Source: Tenacibaculum sp. MAR_2010_89
GTDB taxonomy: Bacteria; Bacteroidota; Bacteroidia; Flavobacteriales; Flavobacteriaceae
DNA: 64,000 bases
Assembly (NCBI RefSeq): GCF_900105985.1
Contig: NZ_FNUB01000005.1
Coordinates: 1,240,001 to 1,304,000, forward strand
Reading direction: 5' to 3'
Below the pieces are notes generated by a model. The model was not told where the DNA came from. It made no database searches and was given only the letters and a program-made list of their open reading frames with translations. This document shows, piece after piece, positions 14 to 24,059 of the stretch (its first letter is position 1; each line of letters begins with the position of its first letter). The translations under genes and the position numbers were made by a program.

Positions 14-904
14 ATGAATAGTATAGAAGCACCAACAAGAGAATTTAAGTTTAGTAAAAAAGAATTAGAAGAATTCAGAAAGAATGGATATGCAGGACCA
101 TTTACCTTGTATGATCCAGAAGACATGAATGAAATAACAAAAAAACTTAGATATAGTTTATTAGATCGTTCAAATAGTGTGTATGAATTTAATGAGGATA
201 TTAACGAGATAAATGATAGAGCAAATTATGACCGTCATTTAGATGTTCCTTTTTTAATGGACCACGTAAAACAACCTAAGATTGTAGATAAACTTACTGA
301 TGTTTTAGGAGAAAATGTTCTTTGTTGGAGGTCAGAATGGTTTCCAAAGTATCCAGGTGATAAAGGAACAGATTGGCATCAGGTAGATACATTTGAATTT
401 TCTAGTGGAGAACCACAATTAGTATGGCCTCAGAAAGAAGACTTTGGAGGTACTATAACAGTATGGACAGCACTTACAGATGCAACTATAGAAACAGCAT
501 GTTTAAAGTTTATGCCAGGAACACACGAAGAATTATTTTATGATGAGAGTAAAGGAGTTGATTTTGATCCTGATGCGATTCATGATGGTTTTTTTGGGTA
601 TGATTATCAAAATTTACAAAAAGATTCAGATTGGGTTCCAGACGAGTCATTAGCAAAATCGATAGAGATGAAAGCAGGGCAGTTTATTATTTTCTGGTCT
701 ACTTTAATGCATGCTTCTCACTCTCATTTAGGAAAAACGAATGATATGCGACTTGGATTTGCTGCACGATTTGTACCAGATATGGTTGATGTTTATCCAG
801 GGAACCCTAAAGAATTAACTGAATTTGGAAGTACAGTTTCTTTAGAGAAGTATAGAACTGTTGCGGTTGCTGGAGTAAATAGAAACCCTAATAACATAAC
901 TTAA
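14..904 (+). CDS. SyrB2-type non-heme Fe(II)/2-oxoglutarate halogenase homologue (PhyH superfamily)
   Basis: The 296-residue protein resembles SyrB2, the halogenase that chlorinates a carrier-bound threonine in syringomycin biosynthesis, across nearly its whole length. The shared blocks I recognise are WHQxDTF, FGGTITVWTA, CLKFMPGT, GFFGYDY, KAGQFIIFWSTLMHAS and MRLGFAARFVP. The proximal iron histidine is H122 and the distal one H233; R246 is the likely 2-oxoglutarate or second-sphere arginine. In hydroxylases the second ligand is Asp (HxD); in known halogenases it is Ala or Gly, leaving room for chloride. Here it is Val124 (codon GTA), which cannot bind iron and is bulkier than Ala. Enzymes of this type act on aminoacyl groups tethered to a carrier protein, and a SyrC-like shuttle lies next door. 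The family call is firm; whether it halogenates, hydroxylates or is inactive cannot be read from the sequence. An A-rich ribosome-binding stretch precedes the ATG. Confidence 0.85.
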   Translation: MNSIEAPTREFKFSKKELEEFRKNGYAGPFTLYDPEDMNEITKKLRYSLLDRSNSVYEFNEDINEINDRANYDRHLDVPFLMDHVKQPKIVDKLTDVLGENVLCWRSEWFPKYPGDKGTDWHQVDTFEFSSGEPQLVWPQKEDFGGTITVWTALTDATIETACLKFMPGTHEELFYDESKGVDFDPDAIHDGFFGYDYQNLQKDSDWVPDESLAKSIEMKAGQFIIFWSTLMHASHSHLGKTNDMRLGFAARFVPDMVDVYPGNPKELTEFGSTVSLEKYRTVAVAGVNRNPNNIT

Positions 905-1122: not shown

Positions 1123-2295
1123 ATGCTAAATACTATAGAACAGATAGAGATAAGTGAATTTTTAGTGAACATTAAATCCTTATTGAAACAACGAAGTGAA
1201 CAGGTAAGGATTTTGAAACAAGTAGAGCTTGATTCTAAAGGGTTTTATACTAAACTTGAGGAAGTTTTAAAAGAATTAGAAATCTATAATCATGTTGATT
1301 TTATCACATCTAAACCAAATGATTTTGACTTGTATGAAGAGATCATAAACACATTTTGTAATGATTACTTTACTAAACTGGGAAATCTTGATATTCATGG
1401 TTTGAAAGAGAATCTGATGAATTATGGAAATAACCCGATTCATATAGTTGATAGAGTAAAAACTCAAAAATTGACAAGTTCTGATGGTACAGTATTGGAT
1501 GTGTTTTCTTACGGAGATATTGAGAATAGTCCAATAATAATAGCCCTTCCAACTGGGTTACCAATGTTAATAATGAAACCTTGGATAGAACTTTTAGCTA
1601 ATAAATATTTTGTAATTACATGGGAAACAAGAGGGATGTCTAAATCGTCAACTACAAAACAATTAGATATTCCAAGTCAATTAGAAGATTTAAAAAATGT
1701 TATGAAGTTTTTCAATCTAGAAAAAGTTCATTTATTTGGAGTTTGCCATGGAGCTAATTTAGTGCTTCATGCTTGTAATGAAATCGATTCTAAAATTATA
1801 TCAGCAAGTCTTTGGCATGGTGATTTTAACTGGAATGATGATAATAAGCTTACATATATACAGCAAAATATGAAGCGATTACTTGAAATGGCAGGGAGTC
1901 AAATTAATATTTCAGATTTAAGAAACTTAATGACTAATCCTAAGTCCATTGGTAAGTTATCAACTGATTATCCTATTAAAAACTTACCGCATATTATGTA
2001 TCCTTATTTGACAGATGAGATTTTTTCCAGCTTCATCAAGTTGTCTAAAGATGTAATGAATAGAAATTTAAAGGAAATTGTAGATAAACTAAATAAAAAA
2101 ATACTGATTGTTACCAGTTCAAATGACAATACTGCTCATCCAGAGGGGTCGGTTTTACTACATTCTTTTTTAAAAGAATCAGAGTTTTACAATAGAGAAT
2201 TTGGGAGTCATATTTCTTTTTTTGAAGCACCAGAAGAATTATACAGCCTTTTTTCTAATTTTTATGAAAATAGCTTTGCTTGTAGCTTAGCTTAA
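1123..2295 (+). CDS. Alpha/beta-hydrolase with Cys nucleophile, SyrC/CmaE-like aminoacyl carrier-to-carrier transferase
   Basis: The 390-residue protein has an N-terminal region of about 110 residues followed by an alpha/beta-hydrolase fold. The nucleophile elbow is G-V-C-H-G with Cys208 in place of Ser; the probable partners are D335 (SSNDNT) and H363 (GSHIS). Fold, Cys elbow and N-terminal extension match SyrC and CmaE, which move aminoacyl groups between carrier proteins in the syringomycin and coronamic acid pathways. Position right behind a SyrB2 homologue repeats the syringomycin arrangement. The inferred role is to carry the tailored aminoacyl group from a stand-alone A-T protein to the peptide synthetase. 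An ordinary thioesterase or esterase is the alternative, but the Cys nucleophile and context argue against it. No signal peptide is seen, so it is cytoplasmic. Confidence 0.72.
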   Translation: MLNTIEQIEISEFLVNIKSLLKQRSEQVRILKQVELDSKGFYTKLEEVLKELEIYNHVDFITSKPNDFDLYEEIINTFCNDYFTKLGNLDIHGLKENLMNYGNNPIHIVDRVKTQKLTSSDGTVLDVFSYGDIENSPIIIALPTGLPMLIMKPWIELLANKYFVITWETRGMSKSSTTKQLDIPSQLEDLKNVMKFFNLEKVHLFGVCHGANLVLHACNEIDSKIISASLWHGDFNWNDDNKLTYIQQNMKRLLEMAGSQINISDLRNLMTNPKSIGKLSTDYPIKNLPHIMYPYLTDEIFSSFIKLSKDVMNRNLKEIVDKLNKKILIVTSSNDNTAHPEGSVLLHSFLKESEFYNREFGSHISFFEAPEELYSLFSNFYENSFACSLA

Positions 2296-2394: not shown

Positions 2395-2979
2395 ATGAAA
2401 ATAAATAAACTTATGACATTACTAGGTACTTCATTGAATAGGCAAACTACAGCAAAGGAAAATGAAACTCGTAATTTAGAAAAATTTAATAAAGTAAATC
2501 TTGAAGGTAGAATAGAGCTTCATTTAGAAAAAAGCTCTCACCATTCGATAGAAATTAGAACAAAAAAGGCCTCAGATATTGCTAATTTAGTTACAGAGGT
2601 TCGTAATGACGAATTATATATTCATAATGAAAAAAATGTAGGCCATAGTAAAACTCCTAAATATATTATTCGACTTAGTCATTCAGGTATTTCAGATATA
2701 ACATTGTCAGGAGTAGTAAGACTTATGTCGGATGATGTGATAAGTCAAAAATCTTTCAATATAGTAGGTGAAGGAATTTTAAACGGAAGTTTAAAAGTGT
2801 CTGTAGATAACCTTAATACAGATATGAATGGAGTTTCAAATATTAAAATTTCAGGTTTTGCTGATGTAGCCGATCTAAACATTACTGGTATTGGGAGAAT
2901 TAATGCGAAAGGTCTTGAAACTAACAATGCCAAAAAAAGTACGGATGGTATTGCTACTGTTTTATTACCTTCAAATTAA
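2395..2979 (+). CDS. GIN-domain (DUF2807) beta-helix protein without signal peptide
   Basis: The 194-residue protein consists of repeated short beta-strand turns (ISDITLSGV, VVGEGILNG, ISGFADVADLN, ITGIGRINAKG) typical of the GIN domain, formerly called a putative auto-transporter adhesin head (DUF2807). Most Bacteroidota members are secreted, but this one starts MKINKLMTLLGTSLNR with no convincing signal peptide or lipobox, so it may stay in the cytoplasm. It lies between the SyrC-like gene and the 48-residue peptide gene on the same strand. Its role in the cluster is unknown. Confidence 0.7.
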   Translation: MKINKLMTLLGTSLNRQTTAKENETRNLEKFNKVNLEGRIELHLEKSSHHSIEIRTKKASDIANLVTEVRNDELYIHNEKNVGHSKTPKYIIRLSHSGISDITLSGVVRLMSDDVISQKSFNIVGEGILNGSLKVSVDNLNTDMNGVSNIKISGFADVADLNITGIGRINAKGLETNNAKKSTDGIATVLLPSN

Positions 2980-3315
2980 TCAATTTCGTTTTTCTTAACC
3001 AAGAATAAACTACAAGCTATAAAATATAAAAGCAATTTATTAAAACAGATTATGTTTAGCGCTGGTAGAAAAATCTAGAAAACTTATTTAATCATAATAA
3101 CTTCTCTTTTCAGATAGTATTGTCTAACTATACAGTTAGTTTCAATGGTTTGCTCAATAGGAACTTCCTACAGTACCAATAATGTCAAATTCAAGACAAA
3201 AAGAGCTTAACTTTTGAAGAAGTTCTTATATCCGAATAATATATAACTACAGGGAAATACGTGATTATAAACGTATACAACAAAAAAAATATACACTAAC
3301 AATTGTGTAATCGGC
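2980..3315. other. Intergenic region without a recognisable gene
   Basis: There is no open frame of note in these 336 bases on either strand. The only structure I see is a small inverted repeat, CTAACT/AGTTAG, at 3124-3139 with a 4-base loop. The length suggests that the downstream peptide gene has its own promoter region. Confidence 0.5.
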
Positions 3316-3336
3316 ATAGTAAATAACATTTACTAT
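3316..3336. promoter_or_regulatory. Operator-like perfect palindrome upstream of the 48-residue peptide gene
   Basis: ATAGTAAAT (3316-3324) and ATTTACTAT (3328-3336) form a perfect 9-bp inverted repeat around the trinucleotide AAC. It ends 29 bases before the ATG at 3366. Size and position fit the binding site of a dimeric regulator or a 5'-UTR hairpin; which one is not decided by the sequence. Confidence 0.45.
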
Positions 3337-3365
3337 TTAATTATTAATCTTTAAATTTTGTTAAA

Positions 3366-3512
3366 ATGAAAACAGCAATGAAACAAAGACAGACAAAAAA
3401 AGTAAACCTACCGGAACTAAAAAATCCAATTAGTTCTAGCGTTAAAGAGGGGGCTTCTAATGGAACACAGCCTTGTTTAATTATAGGATGGCTTCCTCCT
3501 TACTTTCGTTAA
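3366..3512 (+). CDS. 48-residue peptide gene, candidate RiPP or signalling precursor
   Basis: An ATG at 3366, preceded by an A/T-rich leader, opens a 48-codon frame ending in TAA at 3512. The first 20 or so residues are charged and leader-like (MKTAMKQRQTKKVNLPELKN). The C-terminal part is rich in Ser/Gly/Thr/Asn and ends in a compact tail, CLIIGWLPPYFR, with a single Cys and Trp, two prolines and a Tyr. This leader-then-core composition resembles precursors of ribosomally made modified peptides. No Gly-Gly cleavage site is visible, and no classic modification enzyme (LanB, LanM, radical SAM or YcaO) is adjacent. The next two genes encode cupin-like/HEAT-repeat proteins that could act on it. 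It could instead be a signal peptide for the cluster. No known family is recognised. Confidence 0.55.
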   Translation: MKTAMKQRQTKKVNLPELKNPISSSVKEGASNGTQPCLIIGWLPPYFR

Positions 3513-3590
3513 TCTTAATTAATGTTTTTGTAGAAGAATTCAAAATTAAAAAGCTATTTAGTTTTGGATTCTTCTTTAAATAGATGCTAT

Positions 3591-4433
3591 ATGAAACAAA
3601 ATTTAAATTCAAAAAACAGTCAGATTTTCAAAAAATTTGAGGACAAAATATTGTTGTTAAATAACGAAAACGATATACTTAATGAAGTAAATATTTTTAG
3701 TAAAAGTATTTCAATAAATGGTATACTAAATCATTTACTTGAATTATTCTCTAATGAGAAGTATTACCTTCCTAATAATTCAACACAAAATAAAATAACA
3801 TTGTTTAGTTCTTCTAGTTATGAGTTTAGTTTGATACATACTCCTCCTGAAGTAAGAACTTCTAGCGAAGCTACTTCATTGTATACTTATACTAATAACG
3901 TATTCTTTTGCCCATTAATTGATGTTAATGATGTGAGGTATACCATTTATGAACAAAATAAACGAGTAGCTCCTGATGTATTAGATGAAGATGTCAAACT
4001 ACAGATAAAAAAAGAAAATGTTTTTGTTAAGAACGAGACAATTTTTTTAAGAAAATTTAAAGATGTTCTGCGTTTTGATGGAACTAAACCCTTGCTCCTT
4101 TTTATGATTATTTCAAGAAAAGATACATTAAAATATTCTTGGGAGTATAATTCTATTAGCCTTAAACCAGTACGTATAGTGTTAAGAGAAGTTAACTTCG
4201 CAAGATTAGGAACTACAGCGAAGATTTTAGGTAATATAGGAGATGGGAACTCTAAGGCATTATTATTGAAATTATCTCAACACGAATCACATATAGTAAG
4301 ATGGGAAGCTGCTAGAGCTTTAATTAATATTGATTTTGAAGAAGGAGTTTCTGTGTTAAAGAGAATGATGAATGATAAACATATAGAAATAAGTATGGCT
4401 GCTAAGCAGTCAGTACAAATGCTAAACGTTTAA
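3591..4433 (+). CDS. Cupin-like/HEAT-repeat protein (first of a pair)
   Basis: I prefer the ATG at 3591, giving 280 residues, over an in-frame TTG at 3564. The N-terminal 60 residues look helical. Residues about 80-190 are rich in beta strands and resemble a cupin-type sandwich. The last 80 residues contain HEAT-like helical repeats (LLLKLSQHESHIVRWEAARALINID, split here as two helices around positions 218-243). Overall order and length match the next gene, so the two are probably paralogues. However, the His-x-His metal motif of the second protein is not evident here (only LIHTPPEV in a similar place), which suggests a structural or regulatory partner. No family with a known function is recognised. 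It lies 78 bp after the peptide gene. Confidence 0.6.
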   Translation: MKQNLNSKNSQIFKKFEDKILLLNNENDILNEVNIFSKSISINGILNHLLELFSNEKYYLPNNSTQNKITLFSSSSYEFSLIHTPPEVRTSSEATSLYTYTNNVFFCPLIDVNDVRYTIYEQNKRVAPDVLDEDVKLQIKKENVFVKNETIFLRKFKDVLRFDGTKPLLLFMIISRKDTLKYSWEYNSISLKPVRIVLREVNFARLGTTAKILGNIGDGNSKALLLKLSQHESHIVRWEAARALINIDFEEGVSVLKRMMNDKHIEISMAAKQSVQMLNV

Positions 4434-4451
4434 AATTAAAAAAAATATAAT

Positions 4452-5342
4452 ATGGCATATACTTATAAATCAAATACAACTGAAAGTATCAGTTTAGAAG
4501 AATTTATTGATACTTTAAACAGAACTATTTCTTCCGGAGATGAAGATTCTCTATTAGCTTGTGTTGATCCACTTTTTAAAATATCCAACAATGCTAATTT
4601 TTTTACAGAATACCTTAATAAGCAATTAGCATCAGACCTTTCTGATTTTCAAAATGCGAATGTGTATTCGGAACAAAGTTACATGATTTATGAATGTAAA
4701 GATTTTTATATAAGAGTTACATACTGGCCTGTATTATCTAATAATAATAATGTAAGAGATTCTCAAAACGAATTATTTTCATATGATTTTGCTCATGACC
4801 ATAACTTTCCATTGCTAACAGCTGGATACAAAGGAGGTGGTTATATTACTAAATTGTGGGAATACGATTATGAAAAAGTAATAGGATATGCAAACGAAAA
4901 AGTTGATATCAGGTTTTTAGAGGAAGTGACTTTAGCTCCTGGTAGGGCATTGTATTATAGACCATCGAAAGATATACATTCTCAGTTTGCTCCTTTGAAA
5001 GAAGATTCGTTGGCAATCAATATTATTATGAAATCAAATAAATATTCTGATTGTAAGCAATATGAATTTGATATGAATAAAAAAGTAATTAAGAATGTAA
5101 TGCACGGTAGCTCTTCCGCCAGATTTGGACTACTAGAATTGACTAATTTAGTTTACAATAGTACTACTATTGATTTACTACATAAATTGTCGAAAACCCA
5201 TGAACTTCCACAAGTACGTGAAGAAAGTTTAAAAGCATTATACAATATTGAGAAAACAAATGAAGTATGGAAAATAGGGCTTCAGGATATAGATAAATCT
5301 GTTCAGCTTTATTCTGAATTGAGGATTGAAAATAATACATAG
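4452..5342 (+). CDS. Cupin-like/HEAT-repeat protein with His-x-His metal motif (second of a pair)
   Basis: This 296-residue protein starts 18 bp after its neighbour and probably shares its transcript. After a helical N-terminus, residues about 75-205 look like a cupin: A-H115-D-H117 opens motif 1, followed by a Gly-rich strand. Motif 2 reads LAPGRALYYRPSKDIH with H176, followed by a hydrophobic strand and Asn. This spacing fits a mononuclear metal site as in cupin dioxygenases. The C-terminal 80 residues are HEAT-like (LHKLSKTHELPQVREESLKAL). The reaction is unknown. Oxidation or hydroxylation of the 48-residue peptide, or of a carrier-bound intermediate of the NRPS, are inferred possibilities. 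Confidence 0.6.
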   Translation: MAYTYKSNTTESISLEEFIDTLNRTISSGDEDSLLACVDPLFKISNNANFFTEYLNKQLASDLSDFQNANVYSEQSYMIYECKDFYIRVTYWPVLSNNNNVRDSQNELFSYDFAHDHNFPLLTAGYKGGGYITKLWEYDYEKVIGYANEKVDIRFLEEVTLAPGRALYYRPSKDIHSQFAPLKEDSLAINIIMKSNKYSDCKQYEFDMNKKVIKNVMHGSSSARFGLLELTNLVYNSTTIDLLHKLSKTHELPQVREESLKALYNIEKTNEVWKIGLQDIDKSVQLYSELRIENNT

Positions 5343-5756: not shown

Positions 5757-8700
5757 ATGAAAATAGATGAATATATCAGTGACTTAAGAAAAAAGAATAT
5801 TATTATTTCTGTAAAAGAAGGGAAAATATCTTTGAAAGGATCAAAAGAAAAGATTACTCCTGAAGTTATTAAAGAGTTGACTGCTAAAAAGCAGGATATT
5901 TTAACTTTTTTCAAGTCAATAAAAAAAGTAAAAGAGTTTGAGTCTATTAAACCTGCTCCTAAACAAAATTATTATCCATTATCATCGTCTCAACTTAGAA
6001 TGTATTTTTTATATAATTTTGATAAAGAGAGTACAAGTTATAATGTACCAGGTTTTTATAGAGTTAGTAGAAATTTAGATGTATTAAAGTTAGAACAAGT
6101 TTTTCAAAAATTGTCTAACCGTCATCATAGTTTACGTACAGTTTTTGAAATAGTAGATGGAAACCCTGTTCAACGTGTGTTGGATTCAAATTCCTTAAAG
6201 GTAACTCGTCATCAAGGTACAACGTCAGATATAAATCGTTATATGGATAGTTTTGTTCGTCCATTTGACTTATCTAAGGAGCTTCCTATTCGAATTTCTT
6301 TAATGGAGGTTTTAGAAGAGGATTATTTATTGATGATTGATATGCATCATATTATTAATGATGGTGTTTCTAGTGAAGTTTTAATGCATGATTTTTGGTC
6401 TTTATATCAAGGTAATGTTTTACCTGATTTACCTATTCAATATATAGATTATGCGGTGTGGCAACAAAGTGATGTTTATAAAGATTTGATATCTAGTCAT
6501 AAAGAGTATTGGTTAGATAGGTATAGTGATGAATTTACTGTGTTGGAGATACCAACGGATTATACTAGACCTATTCAGCTTGGTAATGAAGGTTCAGCTT
6601 ATACACTTAGTTTGTCAAAGAAACAAAGTGATAAGTTACGTGATTTTGCAAGTTCACATGGAGCAACTATGTATATGCTGTTTTTGGCTATTTATAATGT
6701 TTTATTGAATAAACTATCAAATCAAGATGATATTATTATTGGTACTCCTACGGTTGGACGTCGTCATTCAGATTTGGAAGGTATAGTAGGTTTGTTTGTG
6801 AATACATTAGCATTACGAAACCAGATAACTTCAAATGTTAGTTTTAGTGATTTATTAGCAAAAATTCAAGAGGATACATTAAAGGCATTTGATCATCAGT
6901 TGTACCCTTATGAAGAATTGATTGATGCCTTAGATGTTTCTCGTAACGTAGGGCGTAATCCGTTATTTAATGTTTTCTTTTCATATAACCAACAAGAAGG
7001 AAGTACTAGTTCTAGTAATGATTCTGATCTTAAAATTGTAAATCATGAAGTGCTATATAATATAGCAAAATTTGATTTAGAACTTGATATAATTAATCAA
7101 GGTGATTATTATGATATGCTTTTTAGTTATAATCTTTCTTTATTTGATGAAAAAACAATAAAAAGATTTTCTACGTATTTAGAAGCTATAATAGAACAAA
7201 TAGTAACTGAAGGAAATATTAAAATATCAGAAATAGATATTCTTTCAAAGGAAGAAAAAAGTCAGATTATTCATGAATTTAATGCTCCAGAAACAAATTA
7301 CAATATTAAAGGAACTGTTGTTGATTTAATTGAGGAACAAGTTTTTTTTAATCCAAAAGCTAAAGCTTTATATTTTAAAAATCATACTATTGATTATGGA
7401 GAGTTAAATAGCAAAGCGAATAAACTTGCTCACTATCTTATTAATGTTATGGGAGTTCAAAAAGGAGACCAAGTTGGTGTACACTTTGGGCGCTCACCAG
7501 AAATGATAATTGGATTTTTGGCAGTATTAAAATCTGGAGCTGCTTACGTTTCGTTGGATCCTGGAAATCCTTCAAGTAGAATTAATTTATTAATTGAGAA
7601 TTCAAATTTAAAATTTATTTTAACCAATTCTTATGAAAAGCTGTTGGCTATTAACACTTCTGTAGAGGTTATAGATTTAATAAGAGAAGGGTTAAATATT
7701 GGAGAAATGCCAAGCAATAATCCTTTAGTTAAGATAAAAGAGAATGATCCAGCATATATAATTTATACCTCTGGAAGTACAGGGAAACCAAAAGGTATTG
7801 TTATTGAGCATAGTTCTTTAGTAGATTATAGTATTACTTTTAAAGAATATTTCTCGTTAACAACATCGGATAAAGTTGTACAACAAGCCTCTCCTGCGTT
7901 TGATACAGTTGTAGAAGAAGTATTTCCAGCATTGTTAACTGGAGCATCTATTGTTATAATGCCAGATGGAGGGAAAAATATAGAATATCTTCTTAAAGAA
8001 ATTAAAGAAACTAAAGCTACAATATTAAGTACAGTTCCAGTTGTCGTAGATGCTTTAAATAATTATTCAGATGCTTTAGAAAGTTTAAGGTTGATTGTTA
8101 GTGGAGGAGATGTGTTACTTCCAAGGCATATTAGTAATTTAATAGAAAAATATCCAATATACAATACTTATGGGCCTTCAGAGTCAACAGTTTGTATTAC
8201 CTACCATAAGGTTAGTTCACTTGATAATACTTCATGTATTGGTAAACCAATTCCTAATAGACAAGTATATATACTTAATAAAGACAAACAGTTATGTCCA
8301 GTTGGAGTTACAGGAGAACTTTGTGTTTCAGGTAAAGGTTTAGCAAAAGAATATTTAAATGATAAAAAATTAACAGAGGATAAATTTATAAAAAATCCTA
8401 TAATTCCAACTTCAAGAATTTATCGTACTGGTGATACAGCTAAGTGGAATTCTGATGGAACCATTGAATTTCTTGGAAGAGTTGATAATCAAGTTAAAAT
8501 AAGAGGTGTCCGAATCGAATTAGGAGAGATAGAATCTCAATTAGAGTCTATTGATATAGTAAGTCAAGCATTAGTATTGGCAAGTGGATCAGAAAATAAT
8601 AAGCAGTTGATAGCTTATTTATGTGGTGTAGGGGAGTTAGACGACATTTCGATTGCTACGTTATTGTCGTCAAAGCTTCCTGATTATATGATTCCTTCAG

Positions 8701-11700
8701 GTTATATATGGTTAGATTCTTTTCCAGTAAATTCCAATGGAAAAATAGACAGGAGAGCGTTGCTTAGTCCAGATTTAACTTCAGAGGAGAAGTATGTAGC
8801 GCCAGAGACTAATGATCAACAGAAATTAGTTAAAATTTGGTCAGAAGTTTTAGATCTTGAAGAGGATACGATTAGTATTACATCAGATTTTTTTAGATTA
8901 GGAGGTCACTCATTATTAGCCATTACATTAACTAATAAAATTAATCAAGTTTTTAATATTGAAGTTTCTCTAAAAGATTTATTTTCTTATCGTACTATTT
9001 TAGAGTTGTCAACTTATATATCAGAAAAAGAACATGTTCAATTTGAGTCTATACCAAAGGCCTTAGAGAGTAGTTCTTATCCATTGTCATCGGCACAACG
9101 TCGTATGTATTTCTTATATGAATTTGACAAGGGTAGTACAAGTTATAACATGCCAATGTTTTATAGGGTTGGAAGAGATTTAGATGTTTCACAATTAGAT
9201 AAAGTATTTAAAGAATTAGTATCACGTCATCAGTCTTTACGTACCGTTTTTGAGTTGGAAGAAGGATATCCAGTTCAACGAGTTTTAGAAGCAACAAATT
9301 TTAATATAGCTTATAAGCAAGGTAATCCAAGTGATGTTGATAGGTATGTGTCTGAATTTGTACAACCATTTAATTTGGCTGAAGAATTACCATATCGTGT
9401 ATCATTAATAGATATTACAGGTGAAGACTATTTGTTAATGATAGATTCACACCATATAATTAATGATGGAGTTTCCAATGAGATTTTAATGAAAGGATTT
9501 TGGTCATTATACCATGGAGAGTCTTTACCAAGTTTAAGTATTGATTATATAGATTATTCAGTTTGGCAACAAAGTGAGGGGTATCAAGATTTAGTATCGA
9601 GTCATAAAACGTATTGGTTAGATAAGTATAGTGAAGAGTTAACAGCATTAGAATTACCTACAGATTATCCTCGTAGTCAAGATCAAAGTACAGAAGGAGA
9701 TGTTCATTCAATAACTCTAAGTAAAAAACAAAGTGAAGAGTTACGTAAAATAGCAGCAAGTGAAGGAGTAACAATGTACACATTGTTTTTAGGTATTTAT
9801 ACAATTTTACTAAGTAAGTTGTCAAATCAAGAAGATATTGTTGTAGGTACTCCAACAGCGGGGCGTCATCATGCCGATTTAGAAGAGGTTGTAGGAATGT
9901 TTGTGAATACATTAGCTCTACGTAACCAAGTAGCTTCAGGAACTAGTTTTCAAGAATTTTTATCAGAACTACAAGTAAATACATTAATGGCATTTGATCA
10001 TCAATTGTATCAGTATGAAGAATTGGTGGATGCATTAGATGTTTCACGAGATAGTGGACGTAATCCGTTATTTGATGTTTTTTATTCATACAATCAATAT
10101 CAAGAAGTAACTGATGTAGAAGAATCAGAGAGTTTGAAAATAGTAGGCCATGATGTTAGTTATACTATAGCGAAGTTTGATTTAATGTTAGATGTTTTAG
10201 ATTCTGAATCAATAGTTTTATCACTTAATTATCGAACAGATTTATATAGCTCTTCAAGTATTGCAAGATTTTCAGGTTATCTAAATAAAATTATAGATAG
10301 TGTATTAGATAATAAAGAAAAGCAACTGAAGGATATAGATATACTATCAACATCAGAAAAAGATAGATTGTTATTAGGTTTAAATACTACCAAAGTGAAT
10401 TATGATTTAGAGGAAACAGTTTTAGATATGTTTCGCTCTAAAGTTGAAGAGTTTCCAAATTCTATAGCTTTAGTTATGGAAGGAAAAAAACTTACTTACC
10501 AAGAGTTAGATGCTCGTTCAGATTTATGGGCAACTCATTTGATGAATTTAGGAGTGTTAAAAGGTTCTATAGTTGGTTTAATGATGACTCGTTCTTTAGA
10601 AATGATCACAGGTATTTTAGGTATAATGAAAGCAGGGGGAGCGTATTTACCAATCAATGTAGATCAACCTTTATCTCGAACTCATCATATGTTAGAAGAA
10701 TGTGATGTAGAATTAATTTTAGGAAATGTAAATACTGATGATATTGTAATTGATTCGAAATATACCTTTATTGAAGCTAAAAAATTAGATCTATCTTTAG
10801 AAGTCAAAAAGAAATTATCTTTTGTTGAGGTATCAAATTTAGCTTATGTAATATACACTTCAGGATCAACAGGAACTCCAAAAGGAGTTATGGTTGAACA
10901 TAAATCAGTTACAAATTTAATTAACCATGAGCGTGAATTTTTAGGAGTAAATATAACAGATAAGATATTACAATTCTCTCCATATTATTTTGATGTTTCT
11001 GTAGAGCAGATTTGGTTAGCCTTAACTACAGGTTCAAGTTTAGTTTTATTAGAGAAAGATACTTTAATAGATCATCAAAAATTTATAAATGTATTAGTTA
11101 GAGAAGAAATTACACATTTAAATGTTACCCCCTCGTTTTTAGAAAGTTTATCCTTACCTTCATTAAAATACCTTAAACGTATAGTTGTTTCAGGCGAGTC
11201 ATGTAAGCCAAGTTTGGCAAAGAAATATATAAAAGATTATGATTTTTATAATGAATATGGACCAACAGAGGCAACTGTTATTTCAGTATCCAAAAAATTA
11301 AAATTAGAAGATTTAAAAGGAAGTAATATCTCTATAGGGTATCCTATTGCAAATACACAAGCTTATGTTTTAGATAAAGATCTAAAATTATTACCAAAAG
11401 GAGTTGTAGGAGAGCTTTATATAGGTGGAGTAGGATTATCATCGGGTTATATTAATAATGTTACATTAACAGAAGAACGTTTTATAGCCAATCCATTTGG
11501 AGAAGGGCGTTTGTATAAAACAGGGGATATAGTAAGATGGTTACCTGAAGGAGATTTAGAGTACTTAGGAAGAAATGATCATCAAGTAAAGATACGAGGT
11601 TATCGAATCGAATTAGGAGAGATAGAATCTCAATTAGAGTCTATTGATATAGTAAGTCAAGCATTAGTATTGGCAAGTGGATCAGAAAATAATAAGCAGT

Positions 11701-12830
11701 TGATAGCTTATTTATGTGGTGTAGGGGAGTTAGACGACATTTCGATTGCTACGTTATTGTCGTCAAAGCTTCCTGATTATATGATTCCTTCAGGTTATAT
11801 ATGGTTAGATTCTTTTCCAGTAAATTCCAATGGAAAAATAGACAGGAGAGCGTTGCCTAGTCCAGATTTAACTTCAGAGGAGAAGTATGTAGCGCCAGAG
11901 ACTAATGATCAACAGAAATTAGTTAAAATTTGGTCAGAAGTTTTAGATCTTGAAGAGGATACAATTAGTATTACATCAGACTTTTTTAGATTAGGAGGTC
12001 ACTCATTATTAGCCATTACATTAACTAATAAAATTAATCAAGTTTTTAATATTGAAGTTTCTCTAAAAGATTTATTTTCTTATCGTACTATTTTAGAGTT
12101 GTCAACTTATATATCAGAAAAAGAACATGTTCAATTTGAGTCTATACCAAAGGCCTTAGAGAGTAGTTCTTATCCATTGTCATCGGCACAACGTCGTATG
12201 TATTTCTTATATGAATTTGACAAGGGTAGTACAAGTTATAACATGCCAATGTTTTATAGGGTTGGAAGAGATTTAGATGTTTCACAATTAGATAAAGTAT
12301 TTAAAGAATTAGTATCACGTCATCAGTCTTTACGTACCGTTTTTGAGTTGGAAGAAGGATATCCAGTTCAACGAGTTTTAGAAGCAACAAATTTTAATAT
12401 AGCTTATAAGCAAGGTAATCCAAGTGATGTTGATAGGTATGTGTCTGAATTTGTACAACCATTTAATTTGGCTGAAGAATTACCATATCGTGTATCATTA
12501 ATAGATATTACAGGTGAAGACTATTTGTTAATGATAGATTCACACCATATAATTAATGATGGAGTTTCCAATGAGATTTTAATGAAAGGATTTTGGTCAT
12601 TATACCATGGAGAGTCTTTACCAAGTTTAAGTATTGATTATATAGATTATTCAGTTTGGCAACAAAGTGAGGGGTATCAAGATTTAGTATCGAGTCATAA
12701 AACGTATTGGTTAGATAAGTATAGTGAAGAGTTAACAGCATTAGAATTACCTACAGATTATCCTCGTAGTCAAGATCAAAGTACAGAAGGAGATGTTCAT
12801 TCAATAACTCTAAGTAAAAAAACAAAGTGA
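5757..12830 (+). CDS. Nonribosomal peptide synthetase, modules 1-2 and the start of module 3
   Basis: The frame begins with a TubC-type N-terminal docking domain (residues about 1-55), which implies an upstream partner protein. It continues C1 (HHIINDG near 6346-6366), A1 (TSGSTGKPKG, about 7290-8780), T1 (LGGHSL, pantetheine Ser at 8910-8912), C2, A2 (TSGSTGTPKG) and T2 (Ser at 12003-12005). It then enters C3 and stops at 12830. The stop follows a run of seven A at 12816-12822 where the identical module copies have six, so it is almost certainly not the true end. Restoring the frame joins this part to 14739-22277 as one protein of 5505 residues. The specificity positions I read are DTESISTVCK for A1 and DVENVSEVIK for A2. 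All catalytic motifs look intact. No epimerase, methyltransferase or oxidase domain is seen. Confidence 0.9.
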   Translation: MKIDEYISDLRKKNIIISVKEGKISLKGSKEKITPEVIKELTAKKQDILTFFKSIKKVKEFESIKPAPKQNYYPLSSSQLRMYFLYNFDKESTSYNVPGFYRVSRNLDVLKLEQVFQKLSNRHHSLRTVFEIVDGNPVQRVLDSNSLKVTRHQGTTSDINRYMDSFVRPFDLSKELPIRISLMEVLEEDYLLMIDMHHIINDGVSSEVLMHDFWSLYQGNVLPDLPIQYIDYAVWQQSDVYKDLISSHKEYWLDRYSDEFTVLEIPTDYTRPIQLGNEGSAYTLSLSKKQSDKLRDFASSHGATMYMLFLAIYNVLLNKLSNQDDIIIGTPTVGRRHSDLEGIVGLFVNTLALRNQITSNVSFSDLLAKIQEDTLKAFDHQLYPYEELIDALDVSRNVGRNPLFNVFFSYNQQEGSTSSSNDSDLKIVNHEVLYNIAKFDLELDIINQGDYYDMLFSYNLSLFDEKTIKRFSTYLEAIIEQIVTEGNIKISEIDILSKEEKSQIIHEFNAPETNYNIKGTVVDLIEEQVFFNPKAKALYFKNHTIDYGELNSKANKLAHYLINVMGVQKGDQVGVHFGRSPEMIIGFLAVLKSGAAYVSLDPGNPSSRINLLIENSNLKFILTNSYEKLLAINTSVEVIDLIREGLNIGEMPSNNPLVKIKENDPAYIIYTSGSTGKPKGIVIEHSSLVDYSITFKEYFSLTTSDKVVQQASPAFDTVVEEVFPALLTGASIVIMPDGGKNIEYLLKEIKETKATILSTVPVVVDALNNYSDALESLRLIVSGGDVLLPRHISNLIEKYPIYNTYGPSESTVCITYHKVSSLDNTSCIGKPIPNRQVYILNKDKQLCPVGVTGELCVSGKGLAKEYLNDKKLTEDKFIKNPIIPTSRIYRTGDTAKWNSDGTIEFLGRVDNQVKIRGVRIELGEIESQLESIDIVSQALVLASGSENNKQLIAYLCGVGELDDISIATLLSSKLPDYMIPSGYIWLDSFPVNSNGKIDRRALLSPDLTSEEKYVAPETNDQQKLVKIWSEVLDLEEDTISITSDFFRLGGHSLLAITLTNKINQVFNIEVSLKDLFSYRTILELSTYISEKEHVQFESIPKALESSSYPLSSAQRRMYFLYEFDKGSTSYNMPMFYRVGRDLDVSQLDKVFKELVSRHQSLRTVFELEEGYPVQRVLEATNFNIAYKQGNPSDVDRYVSEFVQPFNLAEELPYRVSLIDITGEDYLLMIDSHHIINDGVSNEILMKGFWSLYHGESLPSLSIDYIDYSVWQQSEGYQDLVSSHKTYWLDKYSEELTALELPTDYPRSQDQSTEGDVHSITLSKKQSEELRKIAASEGVTMYTLFLGIYTILLSKLSNQEDIVVGTPTAGRHHADLEEVVGMFVNTLALRNQVASGTSFQEFLSELQVNTLMAFDHQLYQYEELVDALDVSRDSGRNPLFDVFYSYNQYQEVTDVEESESLKIVGHDVSYTIAKFDLMLDVLDSESIVLSLNYRTDLYSSSSIARFSGYLNKIIDSVLDNKEKQLKDIDILSTSEKDRLLLGLNTTKVNYDLEETVLDMFRSKVEEFPNSIALVMEGKKLTYQELDARSDLWATHLMNLGVLKGSIVGLMMTRSLEMITGILGIMKAGGAYLPINVDQPLSRTHHMLEECDVELILGNVNTDDIVIDSKYTFIEAKKLDLSLEVKKKLSFVEVSNLAYVIYTSGSTGTPKGVMVEHKSVTNLINHEREFLGVNITDKILQFSPYYFDVSVEQIWLALTTGSSLVLLEKDTLIDHQKFINVLVREEITHLNVTPSFLESLSLPSLKYLKRIVVSGESCKPSLAKKYIKDYDFYNEYGPTEATVISVSKKLKLEDLKGSNISIGYPIANTQAYVLDKDLKLLPKGVVGELYIGGVGLSSGYINNVTLTEERFIANPFGEGRLYKTGDIVRWLPEGDLEYLGRNDHQVKIRGYRIELGEIESQLESIDIVSQALVLASGSENNKQLIAYLCGVGELDDISIATLLSSKLPDYMIPSGYIWLDSFPVNSNGKIDRRALPSPDLTSEEKYVAPETNDQQKLVKIWSEVLDLEEDTISITSDFFRLGGHSLLAITLTNKINQVFNIEVSLKDLFSYRTILELSTYISEKEHVQFESIPKALESSSYPLSSAQRRMYFLYEFDKGSTSYNMPMFYRVGRDLDVSQLDKVFKELVSRHQSLRTVFELEEGYPVQRVLEATNFNIAYKQGNPSDVDRYVSEFVQPFNLAEELPYRVSLIDITGEDYLLMIDSHHIINDGVSNEILMKGFWSLYHGESLPSLSIDYIDYSVWQQSEGYQDLVSSHKTYWLDKYSEELTALELPTDYPRSQDQSTEGDVHSITLSKKTK
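8511..11603 (+). repeat. NRPS module repeat, copy 1 (3093 bp)
   Basis: The unit runs from the end of one adenylation domain (CGAATCGAATTAGG) through T, C and most of the next A domain. It differs from copies 2 and 3 only at three bases that I can see, all near its start: T8764 against C, G8870 against A, and T8888 against C. The unit is 1031 codons long, so the duplication preserves frame. Confidence 0.88.
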
Positions 12831-14698
12831 AGAGTTACGTAAAATAGCAGCAAGTGAAGGAGTAACAATGTACACATTGTTTTTAGGTATTTATACAATT
12901 TTACTAAGTAAGTTGTCAAATCAAGAAGATATTGTTGTAGGTACTCCAACAGCGGGGCGTCATCATGCCGATTTAGAAGAGGTTGTAGGAATGTTTGTGA
13001 ATACATTAGCTCTACGTAACCAAGTAGCTTCAGGAACTAGTTTTCAAGAATTTTTATCAGAACTACAAGTAAATACATTAATGGCATTTGATCATCAATT
13101 GTATCAGTATGAAGAATTGGTGGATGCATTAGATGTTTCACGAGATAGTGGACGTAATCCGTTATTGATGTTTTTTATATTCATACAATCAATATCAAGA
13201 AGTAACTGATGTAGAAGAATCAGAGAGTTTGAAAATAGTAGGCCATGATGTTTAGTTATACTATAGCGAAGTTTGATTTAATGTTAGATGTTTTAGATTC
13301 TGAATCAATAGTTTTATCACTTAATTATCGAACAGATTTATATAGCTCTTCAAGTATTGCAAGATTTTCAGGTTATCTAAATAAAATTATAGATAGTGTA
13401 TTAGATAATAAAGAAAAGCAACTGAAGGATATAGATATACTATCACATCAGAAAAAGATAGATTGTTATTAGGTTTAAATACTACCAAAGTGAATTATGA
13501 TTTAGAGGAAACAGTTTTAGATATGTTTCGCTCTAAAGTTGAAGAGTTTCCAAATTCTATAGCTTTAGTTATGGAAGGAAAAAAACTTACTTACCAAGAG
13601 TTAGATGCTCGTTCAGATTTATGGGCAACTCATTTGATGAATTTAGGAGTGTTAAAAGGTTCTATAGTTGGTTTAATGATGACTCGTTCTTTAGAAATGA
13701 TCACAGGTATTTTAGGTATAATGAAAGCAGGGGGAGCGTATTTACCAATCAATGTAGATCAACCTTTATCTCGAACTCATCATATGTTAGAAGAATGTGA
13801 TGTAGAATTAATTTTAGGAAATGTAAATACTGATGATATTGTAATTGATTCGAAATATACCTTTATTGAAGCTAAAAAATTAGATCTATCTTTAGAAGTC
13901 AAAAAGAAATTATCTTTTGTTGAGGTATCAAATTTAGCTTATGTAATATACACTTCAGGATCAACAGGAACTCCAAAAGGAGTTATGGTTGAACATAAAT
14001 CAGTTACAAATTTAATTAACCATGAGCGTGAATTTTTAGGAGTAAATATAACAGATAAGATATTACAATTCTCTCCATATTATTTTGATGTTTCTGTAGA
14101 GCAGATTTGGTTAGCCTTAACTACAGGTTCAAGTTTAGTTTTATTAGAGAAAGATACTTTAATAGATCATCAAAAATTTATAAATGTATTAGTTAGAGAA
14201 GAAATTACACATTTAAATGTTACCCCTCGTTTTTAGAAAGTTTATCCTTACCTTCATTAAAATACCTTAAACGTATAGTTGTTTCAGGCGAGTCATGTAA
14301 GCCAAGTTTGGCAAAGAAATATATAAAAGATTATGATTTTTATAATGAATATGGACCAACAGAGGCAACTGTTATTTCAGTATCCAAAAAATTAAAATTA
14401 GAAGATTTAAAAGGAAGTAATATCTCTATAGGGTATCCTATTGCAAATACACAAGCTTATGTTTTAGATAAAGATCTAAAATTATTACCAAAAGGAGTTG
14501 TAGGAGAGCTTTATATAGGTGGAGTAGGATTATCATCGGGTTATATTAATAATGTTACATTAACAGAAGAACGTTTTATAGCCAATCCATTTGGAGAAGG
14601 GCGTTTGTATAAAACAGGGGATATAGTAAGATGGTTACCTGAAGGAGATTTAGAGTACTTAGGAAGAAATGATCATCAAGTAAAGATACGAGGTTAAT
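11604..14698 (+). repeat. NRPS module repeat, copy 2 (carries nearly all of the indels)
   Basis: This copy is identical in base substitutions to copy 1 beyond the three early differences, but carries seven of the eight small indels that break the frame. The spacing between equivalent points rises from 3093 bp (9045 to 12138) to 3096 bp (12138 to 15234). That equals the net +3 from all eight indels, the last of which falls just inside copy 3. Confidence 0.88.
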
Positions 14699-14738
14699 CG
14701 AATCGAATTAGGAGAGATAGAATCTCAATTAGAGTCTA
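12831..14738 (+). pseudogene. NRPS module 3 (C3-A3) in broken frames, probably a sequencing artefact
   Basis: This stretch encodes the C3 and A3 domains in four fragments (12868-13209, 13245-13472, 13463-14236 and 14308-14697) in shifting frames. Compared with copy 1, the changes are: +1 A in the run at 12816-12822, -1 T at 13165-13166, +AT at 13177-13180, +1 T at 13251-13253, -1 A near 13445, -1 C at 14223-14226, +1 A at 14696-14697 and +1 T at 14743-14744. They sum to +3. There are no nonsense or missense substitutions between them. Most fall in short homopolymers, as expected for unpolished long-read sequence in the middle of a repeat. A true decaying pseudogene would also show base substitutions. 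With the indels corrected, the domains are intact. Confidence 0.8.
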
Positions 14739-16885
14739 TTGATTATAGTAAGTCAAGCATTAGTATTGGCAAGTGGATCAGAAAATAATAAGCAGTTGAT
14801 AGCTTATTTATGTGGTGTAGGGGAGTTAGACGACATTTCGATTGCTACGTTATTGTCGTCAAAGCTTCCTGATTATATGATTCCTTCAGGTTATATATGG
14901 TTAGATTCTTTTCCAGTAAATTCCAATGGAAAAATAGACAGGAGAGCGTTGCCTAGTCCAGATTTAACTTCAGAGGAGAAGTATGTAGCGCCAGAGACTA
15001 ATGATCAACAGAAATTAGTTAAAATTTGGTCAGAAGTTTTAGATCTTGAAGAGGATACAATTAGTATTACATCAGACTTTTTTAGATTAGGAGGTCACTC
15101 ATTATTAGCCATTACATTAACTAATAAAATTAATCAAGTTTTTAATATTGAAGTTTCTCTAAAAGATTTATTTTCTTATCGTACTATTTTAGAGTTGTCA
15201 ACTTATATATCAGAAAAAGAACATGTTCAATTTGAGTCTATACCAAAGGCCTTAGAGAGTAGTTCTTATCCATTGTCATCGGCACAACGTCGTATGTATT
15301 TCTTATATGAATTTGACAAGGGTAGTACAAGTTATAACATGCCAATGTTTTATAGGGTTGGAAGAGATTTAGATGTTTCACAATTAGATAAAGTATTTAA
15401 AGAATTAGTATCACGTCATCAGTCTTTACGTACCGTTTTTGAGTTGGAAGAAGGATATCCAGTTCAACGAGTTTTAGAAGCAACAAATTTTAATATAGCT
15501 TATAAGCAAGGTAATCCAAGTGATGTTGATAGGTATGTGTCTGAATTTGTACAACCATTTAATTTGGCTGAAGAATTACCATATCGTGTATCATTAATAG
15601 ATATTACAGGTGAAGACTATTTGTTAATGATAGATTCACACCATATAATTAATGATGGAGTTTCCAATGAGATTTTAATGAAAGGATTTTGGTCATTATA
15701 CCATGGAGAGTCTTTACCAAGTTTAAGTATTGATTATATAGATTATTCAGTTTGGCAACAAAGTGAGGGGTATCAAGATTTAGTATCGAGTCATAAAACG
15801 TATTGGTTAGATAAGTATAGTGAAGAGTTAACAGCATTAGAATTACCTACAGATTATCCTCGTAGTCAAGATCAAAGTACAGAAGGAGATGTTCATTCAA
15901 TAACTCTAAGTAAAAAACAAAGTGAAGAGTTACGTAAAATAGCAGCAAGTGAAGGAGTAACAATGTACACATTGTTTTTAGGTATTTATACAATTTTACT
16001 AAGTAAGTTGTCAAATCAAGAAGATATTGTTGTAGGTACTCCAACAGCGGGGCGTCATCATGCCGATTTAGAAGAGGTTGTAGGAATGTTTGTGAATACA
16101 TTAGCTCTACGTAACCAAGTAGCTTCAGGAACTAGTTTTCAAGAATTTTTATCAGAACTACAAGTAAATACATTAATGGCATTTGATCATCAATTGTATC
16201 AGTATGAAGAATTGGTGGATGCATTAGATGTTTCACGAGATAGTGGACGTAATCCGTTATTTGATGTTTTTTATTCATACAATCAATATCAAGAAGTAAC
16301 TGATGTAGAAGAATCAGAGAGTTTGAAAATAGTAGGCCATGATGTTAGTTATACTATAGCGAAGTTTGATTTAATGTTAGATGTTTTAGATTCTGAATCA
16401 ATAGTTTTATCACTTAATTATCGAACAGATTTATATAGCTCTTCAAGTATTGCAAGATTTTCAGGTTATCTAAATAAAATTATAGATAGTGTATTAGATA
16501 ATAAAGAAAAGCAACTGAAGGATATAGATATACTATCAACATCAGAAAAAGATAGATTGTTATTAGGTTTAAATACTACCAAAGTGAATTATGATTTAGA
16601 GGAAACAGTTTTAGATATGTTTCGCTCTAAAGTTGAAGAGTTTCCAAATTCTATAGCTTTAGTTATGGAAGGAAAAAAACTTACTTACCAAGAGTTAGAT
16701 GCTCGTTCAGATTTATGGGCAACTCATTTGATGAATTTAGGAGTGTTAAAAGGTTCTATAGTTGGTTTAATGATGACTCGTTCTTTAGAAATGATCACAG
16801 GTATTTTAGGTATAATGAAAGCAGGGGGAGCGTATTTACCAATCAATGTAGATCAACCTTTATCTCGAACTCATCATATGTTAGA
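14699..16885 (+). repeat. NRPS module repeat, copy 3 (partial, ends inside A4)
   Basis: Identity to copy 1 (8511-10697) continues through T3, C4 and the first part of A4, then stops sharply at base 16886, where the sequence switches to a different adenylation core. One extra T at 14743-14744 is its only indel. Confidence 0.87.
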
Positions 16886-23432: not shown

Positions 23433-24059
23433 ATGACATCAATTTATTATACTTCATGTAAAAAATTACCTGAAAATGAATATAAAAAATTAGCCGAGTT
23501 ATTGCCTAAAAAAATGCAAGAAAGGTTAAGTAAATTTCGTCGCTGGCAAGATGCTTACACGTATTTATATGGGAAGCTACTTTTGAAAAAGTGTATGCTT
23601 CAATTTGGCTACGATAATTCTTTAGAATCTATAAAGACGACTGAACATGGTAAGCCGTATTTTGAAAATAGTTCTTTCTCATTTAATATTTCTCACTCAG
23701 AAGAATACGTTGTGTGTGCAATTAGTAATGATGAACAAGTAAATTTAGGTATTGATATAGAAAAAGTAAAACCAATTAAATTAGATGGTTTTAATACTGT
23801 TTTTTCTCCAGAAGAAAAGAGAGAAATAGATAGTTATAACAAGTTTTATACATGTTGGACAAGAAAAGAAGCTATTGTAAAAGCTGATGGTAGAGGGCTA
23901 ACTATACCTCTAAATACAATTAACACCTTAAGCTCGTCAACGAAATTAGATGATGAAAAATATTATTTATCTAAAGTAGATATTAACAATGGGTATATTG
24001 CTCATATTGCGTCTCAAACTAAAATAGAAAAAATGAATGTGATTAACTTTTGTTTTTAA
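23433..24059 (+). CDS. Sfp-type 4'-phosphopantetheinyl transferase
   Basis: This 208-residue protein carries the signature blocks of the Sfp family: FNISHSEEYVVCAI, LGIDIEKVKP (Mg-binding Asp and Glu) and WTRKEAIVKADGRGL. It transfers phosphopantetheine from coenzyme A to the conserved Ser of each T domain. Sitting at the 3' end of the cluster, it is the expected activator of the five carrier domains of the adjacent synthetase. Length is normal for the family. Confidence 0.9.
   Translation: MTSIYYTSCKKLPENEYKKLAELLPKKMQERLSKFRRWQDAYTYLYGKLLLKKCMLQFGYDNSLESIKTTEHGKPYFENSSFSFNISHSEEYVVCAISNDEQVNLGIDIEKVKPIKLDGFNTVFSPEEKREIDSYNKFYTCWTRKEAIVKADGRGLTIPLNTINTLSSSTKLDDEKYYLSKVDINNGYIAHIASQTKIEKMNVINFCF

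Follow-up and report, generated by a model that had tools for sequence, protein, structure and literature searches.

Is an enzyme of the SyrB2 kind still a halogenase when the residue two places after its first iron-binding His (His+2) is neither Ala or Gly, as in the HxA/G motif of halogenases, nor the Asp or Glu of hydroxylases? The question is raised by the gene at 14..904 of the window (the whole stretch of 64,000 nucleotides (nt) that was analyzed, C5:1240001-1304000 of a 4.17 Mb genome), whose product has Val at this site. We consider it likely that this product is an active Fe(II)/2-oxoglutarate (2OG) halogenase of the SyrB2/CytC3 kind, tolerating Val where the carboxylate is missing, with Val possibly tuning the enzyme. 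Its sequence, fold prediction, residue alignment, gene order, recurrence, and selection are shown here; activity, halide, substrate, and order of steps are inferred. The features of the gene are the following.

14..904, + strand: HQV chlorinating enzyme (TIGR01762), downstream member of a tandem pair; intact open reading frame (ORF) of 296 amino acids (aa)
374..391, + strand: W-H-Q-V-D-T motif, with His122 at SyrB2 His116 (first Fe ligand); by codon reading and alignment
383..385, + strand: Val124 codon GTA, at SyrB2 Ala118; the upstream copy has the same codon
398..400, + strand: Phe129, at SyrB2 Asn123 (His in CytC3); by alignment
710..712, + strand: His233, at SyrB2 His235 (second Fe ligand); by alignment
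749..769, + strand: Arg246 and Arg252, at SyrB2 Arg248 and Arg254; by alignment

The protein scores 376.9 bits against the chlorinating-enzyme family TIGR01762 (cut-off 226.3), has SyrB2 as its best match in the PDB (E 2.8e-104), and is predicted to adopt the SyrB2 fold. In the ORF, W121 (TGG, 374-376), H122 (CAT, 377-379), Q123 (CAG, 380-382), and V124 (GTA, 383-385) are followed by D125 and T126. HMMER places V124 opposite residue 121 of the 2fct chain; the chain numbering is offset by 3 from the usual SyrB2 numbering, as fixed by His116 and His235, and this residue is thus Ala118. Both His ligands (SyrB2 116 and 235) are present by alignment, and so are the equivalents of T113, T143, W145, R248, and R254, which we take to be residues of the 2OG and halide network; Arg246 and Arg252 are presumably the 2OG site. 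Among 13 chosen positions, the enzyme agrees with SyrB2 at 11 (102, 113, 116, 121, 143, 145, 196, 231, 235, 248, and 254) and departs from it at 118 and 123. An adenylation (A) domain and a carrier lie next to it, as in SyrB2-type carrier-dependent halogenases.

With neither a carboxylate nor Ala or Gly at His+2, the enzyme is, by its sequence, an HxV variant inside TIGR01762 and falls outside the HxA/G enzymes; a SyrB2-like mode of action is a distinct claim. The sequence-only reading of the locus had placed Val124 at the HxA/G position and had held that Val, a non-ligand of iron, makes no restored hydroxylase, and both points stand; its match to SyrB2 in all signature blocks holds in the main. 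Asn123 of SyrB2, which that reading left unmentioned, is replaced too, by Phe129. The HxA/G (or HQA) rule, in the wording of the available portions of PMC5350257, PMC8407142, PMC12871659, and PMC4859513, does not cover the HxV variant, and the HxV branch would be misjudged wherever this rule is applied.

A single GCA to GTA change had also been suggested, with the base to be confirmed. A second halogenase copy lies 1.3 kb upstream, outside the window (C5:1238722-1239609; L003:16722-17612), the result of a tandem duplication of a 1.24 kb unit of peptidyl carrier protein (PCP) and halogenase, 97% identical (L003:16378-18904, upstream of and into the window). The Val codon is GTA in this copy too, GTT in a relative from the same genus (L022), and GTG in one from Acidobacteriota (L008); hence, a single wrong base is unlikely, and base error was rejected as firmly as can be done short of raw reads. 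Between the two halogenases there are 14 nt and 2 aa differences, and between the two PCPs 3 nt and 1 aa. For the halogenases, the nonsynonymous rate (dN) is 0.0028 and the synonymous rate (dS) 0.072 (NG86), giving dN/dS of ~0.04. A 98% identical relative was found; the sole named close relative is from Tenacibaculum, a marine genus, and the host bacterium is probably marine.

Val recurs among the relatives, and the candidate explanation of a single-genome oddity was rejected on this ground. At SyrB2 118, the 281 aligned sequences have Val in 130, Ala in 150, and Glu in one, a Val share that reflects the choice of queries. The first search (best 120 of 1911 matches) gave 121 proteins including the query, with 14 Val, 106 Ala, and one Glu; the second, seeded with ten Val types (best 120 of 2560 matches), added 38 proteins, all Ala; the third, seeded with the HQV enzyme of L022 (best 120 of 220 matches), added 117, with 111 WHQV, two WHAV, and four Ala. 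Five further rows are the upstream copy, L022, L008, SyrB2, and CytC3. Bacteria with the Val type include a Nostoc from a lichen surface, a Streptomyces, and an Acidobacteriaceae metagenome-assembled genome (MAG) from 'palsa'. The sequence-only reading would have been refuted by relatives with Ala or Gly throughout; they turned out mixed at this site.

The TIGR01762 cut-off is exceeded in 2/166 genomes of the genus (any match in 4/166), in 1/395 genomes of the order (any match in 52), and in 1/395 of the phylum (any match in 57), the one in the last two samples being the own genome; by protein, 18/397 genomes of the family sample have any match, all except the own genome at 25–30% identity. 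A scan for the exact WHQVDTF DNA pattern found 16 stretches in 84,980 species genomes, one of them a true homologue (L008), and gives no frequency, as most Val enzymes differ after WHQV and the own genome was possibly excluded.

Some relatives are worth recording for themselves. The same-genus HQV enzyme (L022:67-3840) is 41% identical, and near it are, by eye, an apparent type II thioesterase, an apparent end of an A domain, and an apparent desaturase gene. The Acidobacteriota cassette (L008:2203-7608) has an A domain with five carrier matches, an HQV halogenase, and an alpha/beta hydrolase. On a Streptomyces plasmid (L082), an HQV enzyme adjoins an A domain, a PCP, an aminotransferase, and genes for 2-isopropylmalate synthase and 3-isopropylmalate dehydrogenase and dehydratase, a setting that suggests a chain-extended amino acid as its substrate. 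The sole Glu row (P0089) is a SyrB2-like protein with WHQEDTFAF and also Phe at 123, a possible natural return to a 2-His-1-carboxylate site inside the halogenase family. In UniRef or NCBI, some chlorinating enzymes (P0025, P0071, P0163, and P0202) go by the name 'chemotaxis protein CheX' as well, which is probably a misannotation that has spread.

Position 118 has changed repeatedly. On a tree of 58 rows, hand-chosen from the 281 and built with columns 118 and 123 excluded, the Val site needs 10 changes, at least 8 of them on starred branches; a fast tree of all 281 rows gives 11 state changes. Val as the mark of a single clade was rejected accordingly. In one deep clade Val is almost universal (113 of the 117 proteins that the third search added; 17/19 of its rows in the 58-row tree), while the window clade of 13 rows has nine Val and four Ala, for which the best tree requires 4 changes or more, and contains sister pairs unlike at the site (P0043/P0099, 91% identity; P0006/P0007, 83%). 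Val and Ala are thus swapped over short time scales in the branch of the window and Val is kept in another. Of the proposed HxV halogenase subtype, the existence of an HxV group survives, with Val nearly fixed in the deep clade, and Val alone as the subtype mark does not, given the changes and unlike pairs in the window clade. These natural sister pairs offer a clean test of the room at the halide site and of the choice between halogenation and hydroxylation.

At position 123, the raw counts are striking. An aromatic residue is seen here in 122/130 Val rows, 4/150 Ala rows, and the sole Glu row; all four Ala rows belong to the window clade, where Phe is present in 13/13 rows, and the aromatic state needs 4 changes only. 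Independent pairs give, for the Val/Ala contrast, 3–4 concordant and 0 discordant of 9 with aromatic 123 (p 0.125–0.25), and 2–3 concordant and 0 discordant of 9 with any non-Asn (not significant); for the Ala/non-Ala contrast, Glu counted, 2–3 concordant and 0 discordant of 8 (p 0.25–0.5); and for pairs unlike at 123, 1–3 concordant and 0 discordant of 4 (not significant). Over the four tests p is 0.125 to 1, with too few pairs to reach 0.05, and the 118–123 association in these alignments is a lead and not a result. It is conceivable, though rather improbable, that the two positions form a switch thrown several times in evolution: Ala with Asn would give strict chlorination, and Val (once Glu, in P0089) with Phe or Tyr would serve a different outcome or class of substrate. 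A large HxV branch of 'chlorinating enzymes', overlooked until now, would then not be plainly chlorinating.

Several observations weigh against an active, SyrB2-like halogenase. With Phe at 123, a polar residue present in SyrB2 is lost. At the position of SyrB2 Ser231, 150/150 Ala rows and 23/130 Val rows have Ser, and 98 Val rows have Ala; the window enzyme retains Ser. In the available text, one review gives the His+2 residue as alanine or glycine (PMC5350257) and another as 'usually' so (PMC8407142), while a recent annotation pipeline takes HXG/A as the halogenation-indicating motif (PMC12871659); in SyrB2, Ala replaced by Asp or Glu is reported to abolish halogenation (PMC2767507). HctB, from what the source offers, gives dihalogenation and also oxygenated products, and the placing of its Val113 at His+2 depends on residue numbers from a paper that worked with a model and not with a crystal structure (PMC6218459). 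The copies could also be kept alike by gene conversion. The Fe and 2OG residues hold across the Val rows, and Phe121 is replaced by Tyr in 94/130 of them; with the changes at Ser231 and Phe121, the deep Val clade departs from SyrB2 at more than one site and may not be a guide to the details of the window enzyme.

Among the alternatives, all of them less likely, the best placed is an Fe/2OG enzyme with two His ligands and a different chemistry, in which the Val/Phe pair shifts the outcome through weak halide binding toward mostly hydroxylation or desaturation, or couples another anion. We regard it as rather unlikely: the skew of aromatic residues at 123 toward Val and Glu rows, the hydroxylation of some non-natural substrates by SyrB2 (PMC4227530, as far as its available text goes), and the oxygenated HctB products speak for it, but the pair tests are not significant, Val and Ala swap within the window clade with Phe unchanged, and HctB is an apparent precedent for halogenation. 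More improbable is a halide-preference variant, Val reshaping the pocket toward a strong preference for bromide (or chloride) in seawater species; the marine Tenacibaculum relative fits this, but the 'palsa', Streptomyces, and lichen-surface enzymes have Val too. That the residue leaves space for chloride in SyrB2, as an accessible part of PMC2767507 has it, favors such an effect. A dead or decaying enzyme, as the sequence-only reading had allowed, is very improbable, since the missing literal HxA/G motif and the broken frames in a nearby synthetase module are set against two intact copies at dN/dS ~0.04, the 98% identical relative, conserved active-site residues (11/13 as in SyrB2), the cassette context, and Val kept over a deep clade.

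For the preferred reading, an active halogenase tolerating Val, the surrounding genes suggest a route. Their order is nonribosomal peptide synthetase (NRPS) genes, a stand-alone thioesterase, a stand-alone A domain, PCP, halogenase, PCP, halogenase, an alpha/beta hydrolase, three other genes, and an NRPS with a terminal thioesterase, with a phosphopantetheinyl transferase further on. The main features in the window are the following.

1123..2295, + strand: alpha/beta hydrolase (Pfam PF00561) with a GVCHGA (Cys) elbow; presumed aminoacyl shuttle
5757..12830, + strand: NRPS with a TubC_N docking domain and condensation–adenylation–thiolation (C-A-T) modules; likely to take up the modified residue
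14739..22277, + strand: NRPS with C-A-T modules and a terminal thioesterase
23433..24059, + strand: 4'-phosphopantetheinyl transferase

The CytC1-like A domain would load a small aliphatic amino acid on a free-standing PCP; Fe on His122 and His233, with 2OG and halide, would give a halo-oxo-iron(IV) species, which would take H from the side chain and transfer the halogen; and the Cys hydrolase would carry the residue on to the NRPS line. The two PCP–halogenase pairs may act serially or merely give a higher dose. Val124 would pack in the carboxylate gap and, with Phe129, make a more hydrophobic site that may tune substrate placement.

The stand-alone A domain has its top single-domain PDB score with CytC1 (307.7 bits; 8xjz near-tied at 306.6), and its core stretch scores 127.1 bits with CytC1 and 125.8 with 5n9w. 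At the pocket positions of GrsA, it reads, by eye on the alignment, DFWN-I-G-V-I-F, against DFWN-I-G-G-V-F in CytC1 and DFWN-V-G-M-V-H in 5n9w, presumably a Thr enzyme. Phe instead of His, common to the A domain and CytC1, predicts an amino acid without the threonine hydroxyl; the substrate is probably a small aliphatic, 2-aminobutyrate-like amino acid.

The hydrolase, which we take to be a SyrC/CmaE-type shuttle, is 31% identical over 267 aa to the hydrolase after an HQA (Ala-type) chlorinating enzyme in Kitasatospora. Its plasmid matches are in five records, adjoining a chlorinating enzyme in 2/5 (Kitasatospora, annotated; Streptomyces mirabilis, by coordinates); the match in a Burkholderia stagnalis plasmid has no adjoining chlorinating enzyme. 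Between hydrolase and NRPS (2395-5342) are a DUF2807 protein, a protein with HEAT repeats, and one of 296 aa that has no match in Pfam. At 12830-14739, frame breaks divide the third of five NRPS repeats (spacing ~3.1 kb), a series in which three repeats share a 300-nt stretch at 100% identity; the split is either decay or an indel or assembly error in the repeat.

Among known systems, BarB1/BarB2 are likewise tandem halogenases, acting on one carrier-bound residue according to the available part of PMC8407142; the members of the window pair are only 2/296 aa apart, which makes a division of labour doubtful here. HctB (hectochlorin) apparently shares the HxV motif, by the numbering His111, Val113, and His227, and differs in its fatty-acyl substrate and fused carrier, as given in the accessible text of PMC6218459; the likeness is read from residue numbering. 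Val at His+2 thus apparently occurs in a halogenase that has already been studied, the motif passing unremarked in the portion available. Among the open-licence papers listed for such halogenases, PMC6218459 alone has Val113 and none has HQV, and there was no match for 'HXV' with halogenase or for SyrB2 with N123.

CytC3 has HQA with His at 123, and its partner CytC1 resembles the stand-alone A domain of the window, including, by eye, the pocket Phe where 5n9w has His. SyrB2 (2FCT), the best match in the PDB, shares the predicted fold, the His ligands, and the residues of the 2OG and chloride network, and SyrB1–SyrB2–SyrC follow the same cassette logic of adenylation–thiolation protein, halogenase, and hydrolase. 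The window system differs from it in Val for Ala118, Phe for Asn123, free-standing carriers, and two PCP–halogenase pairs.
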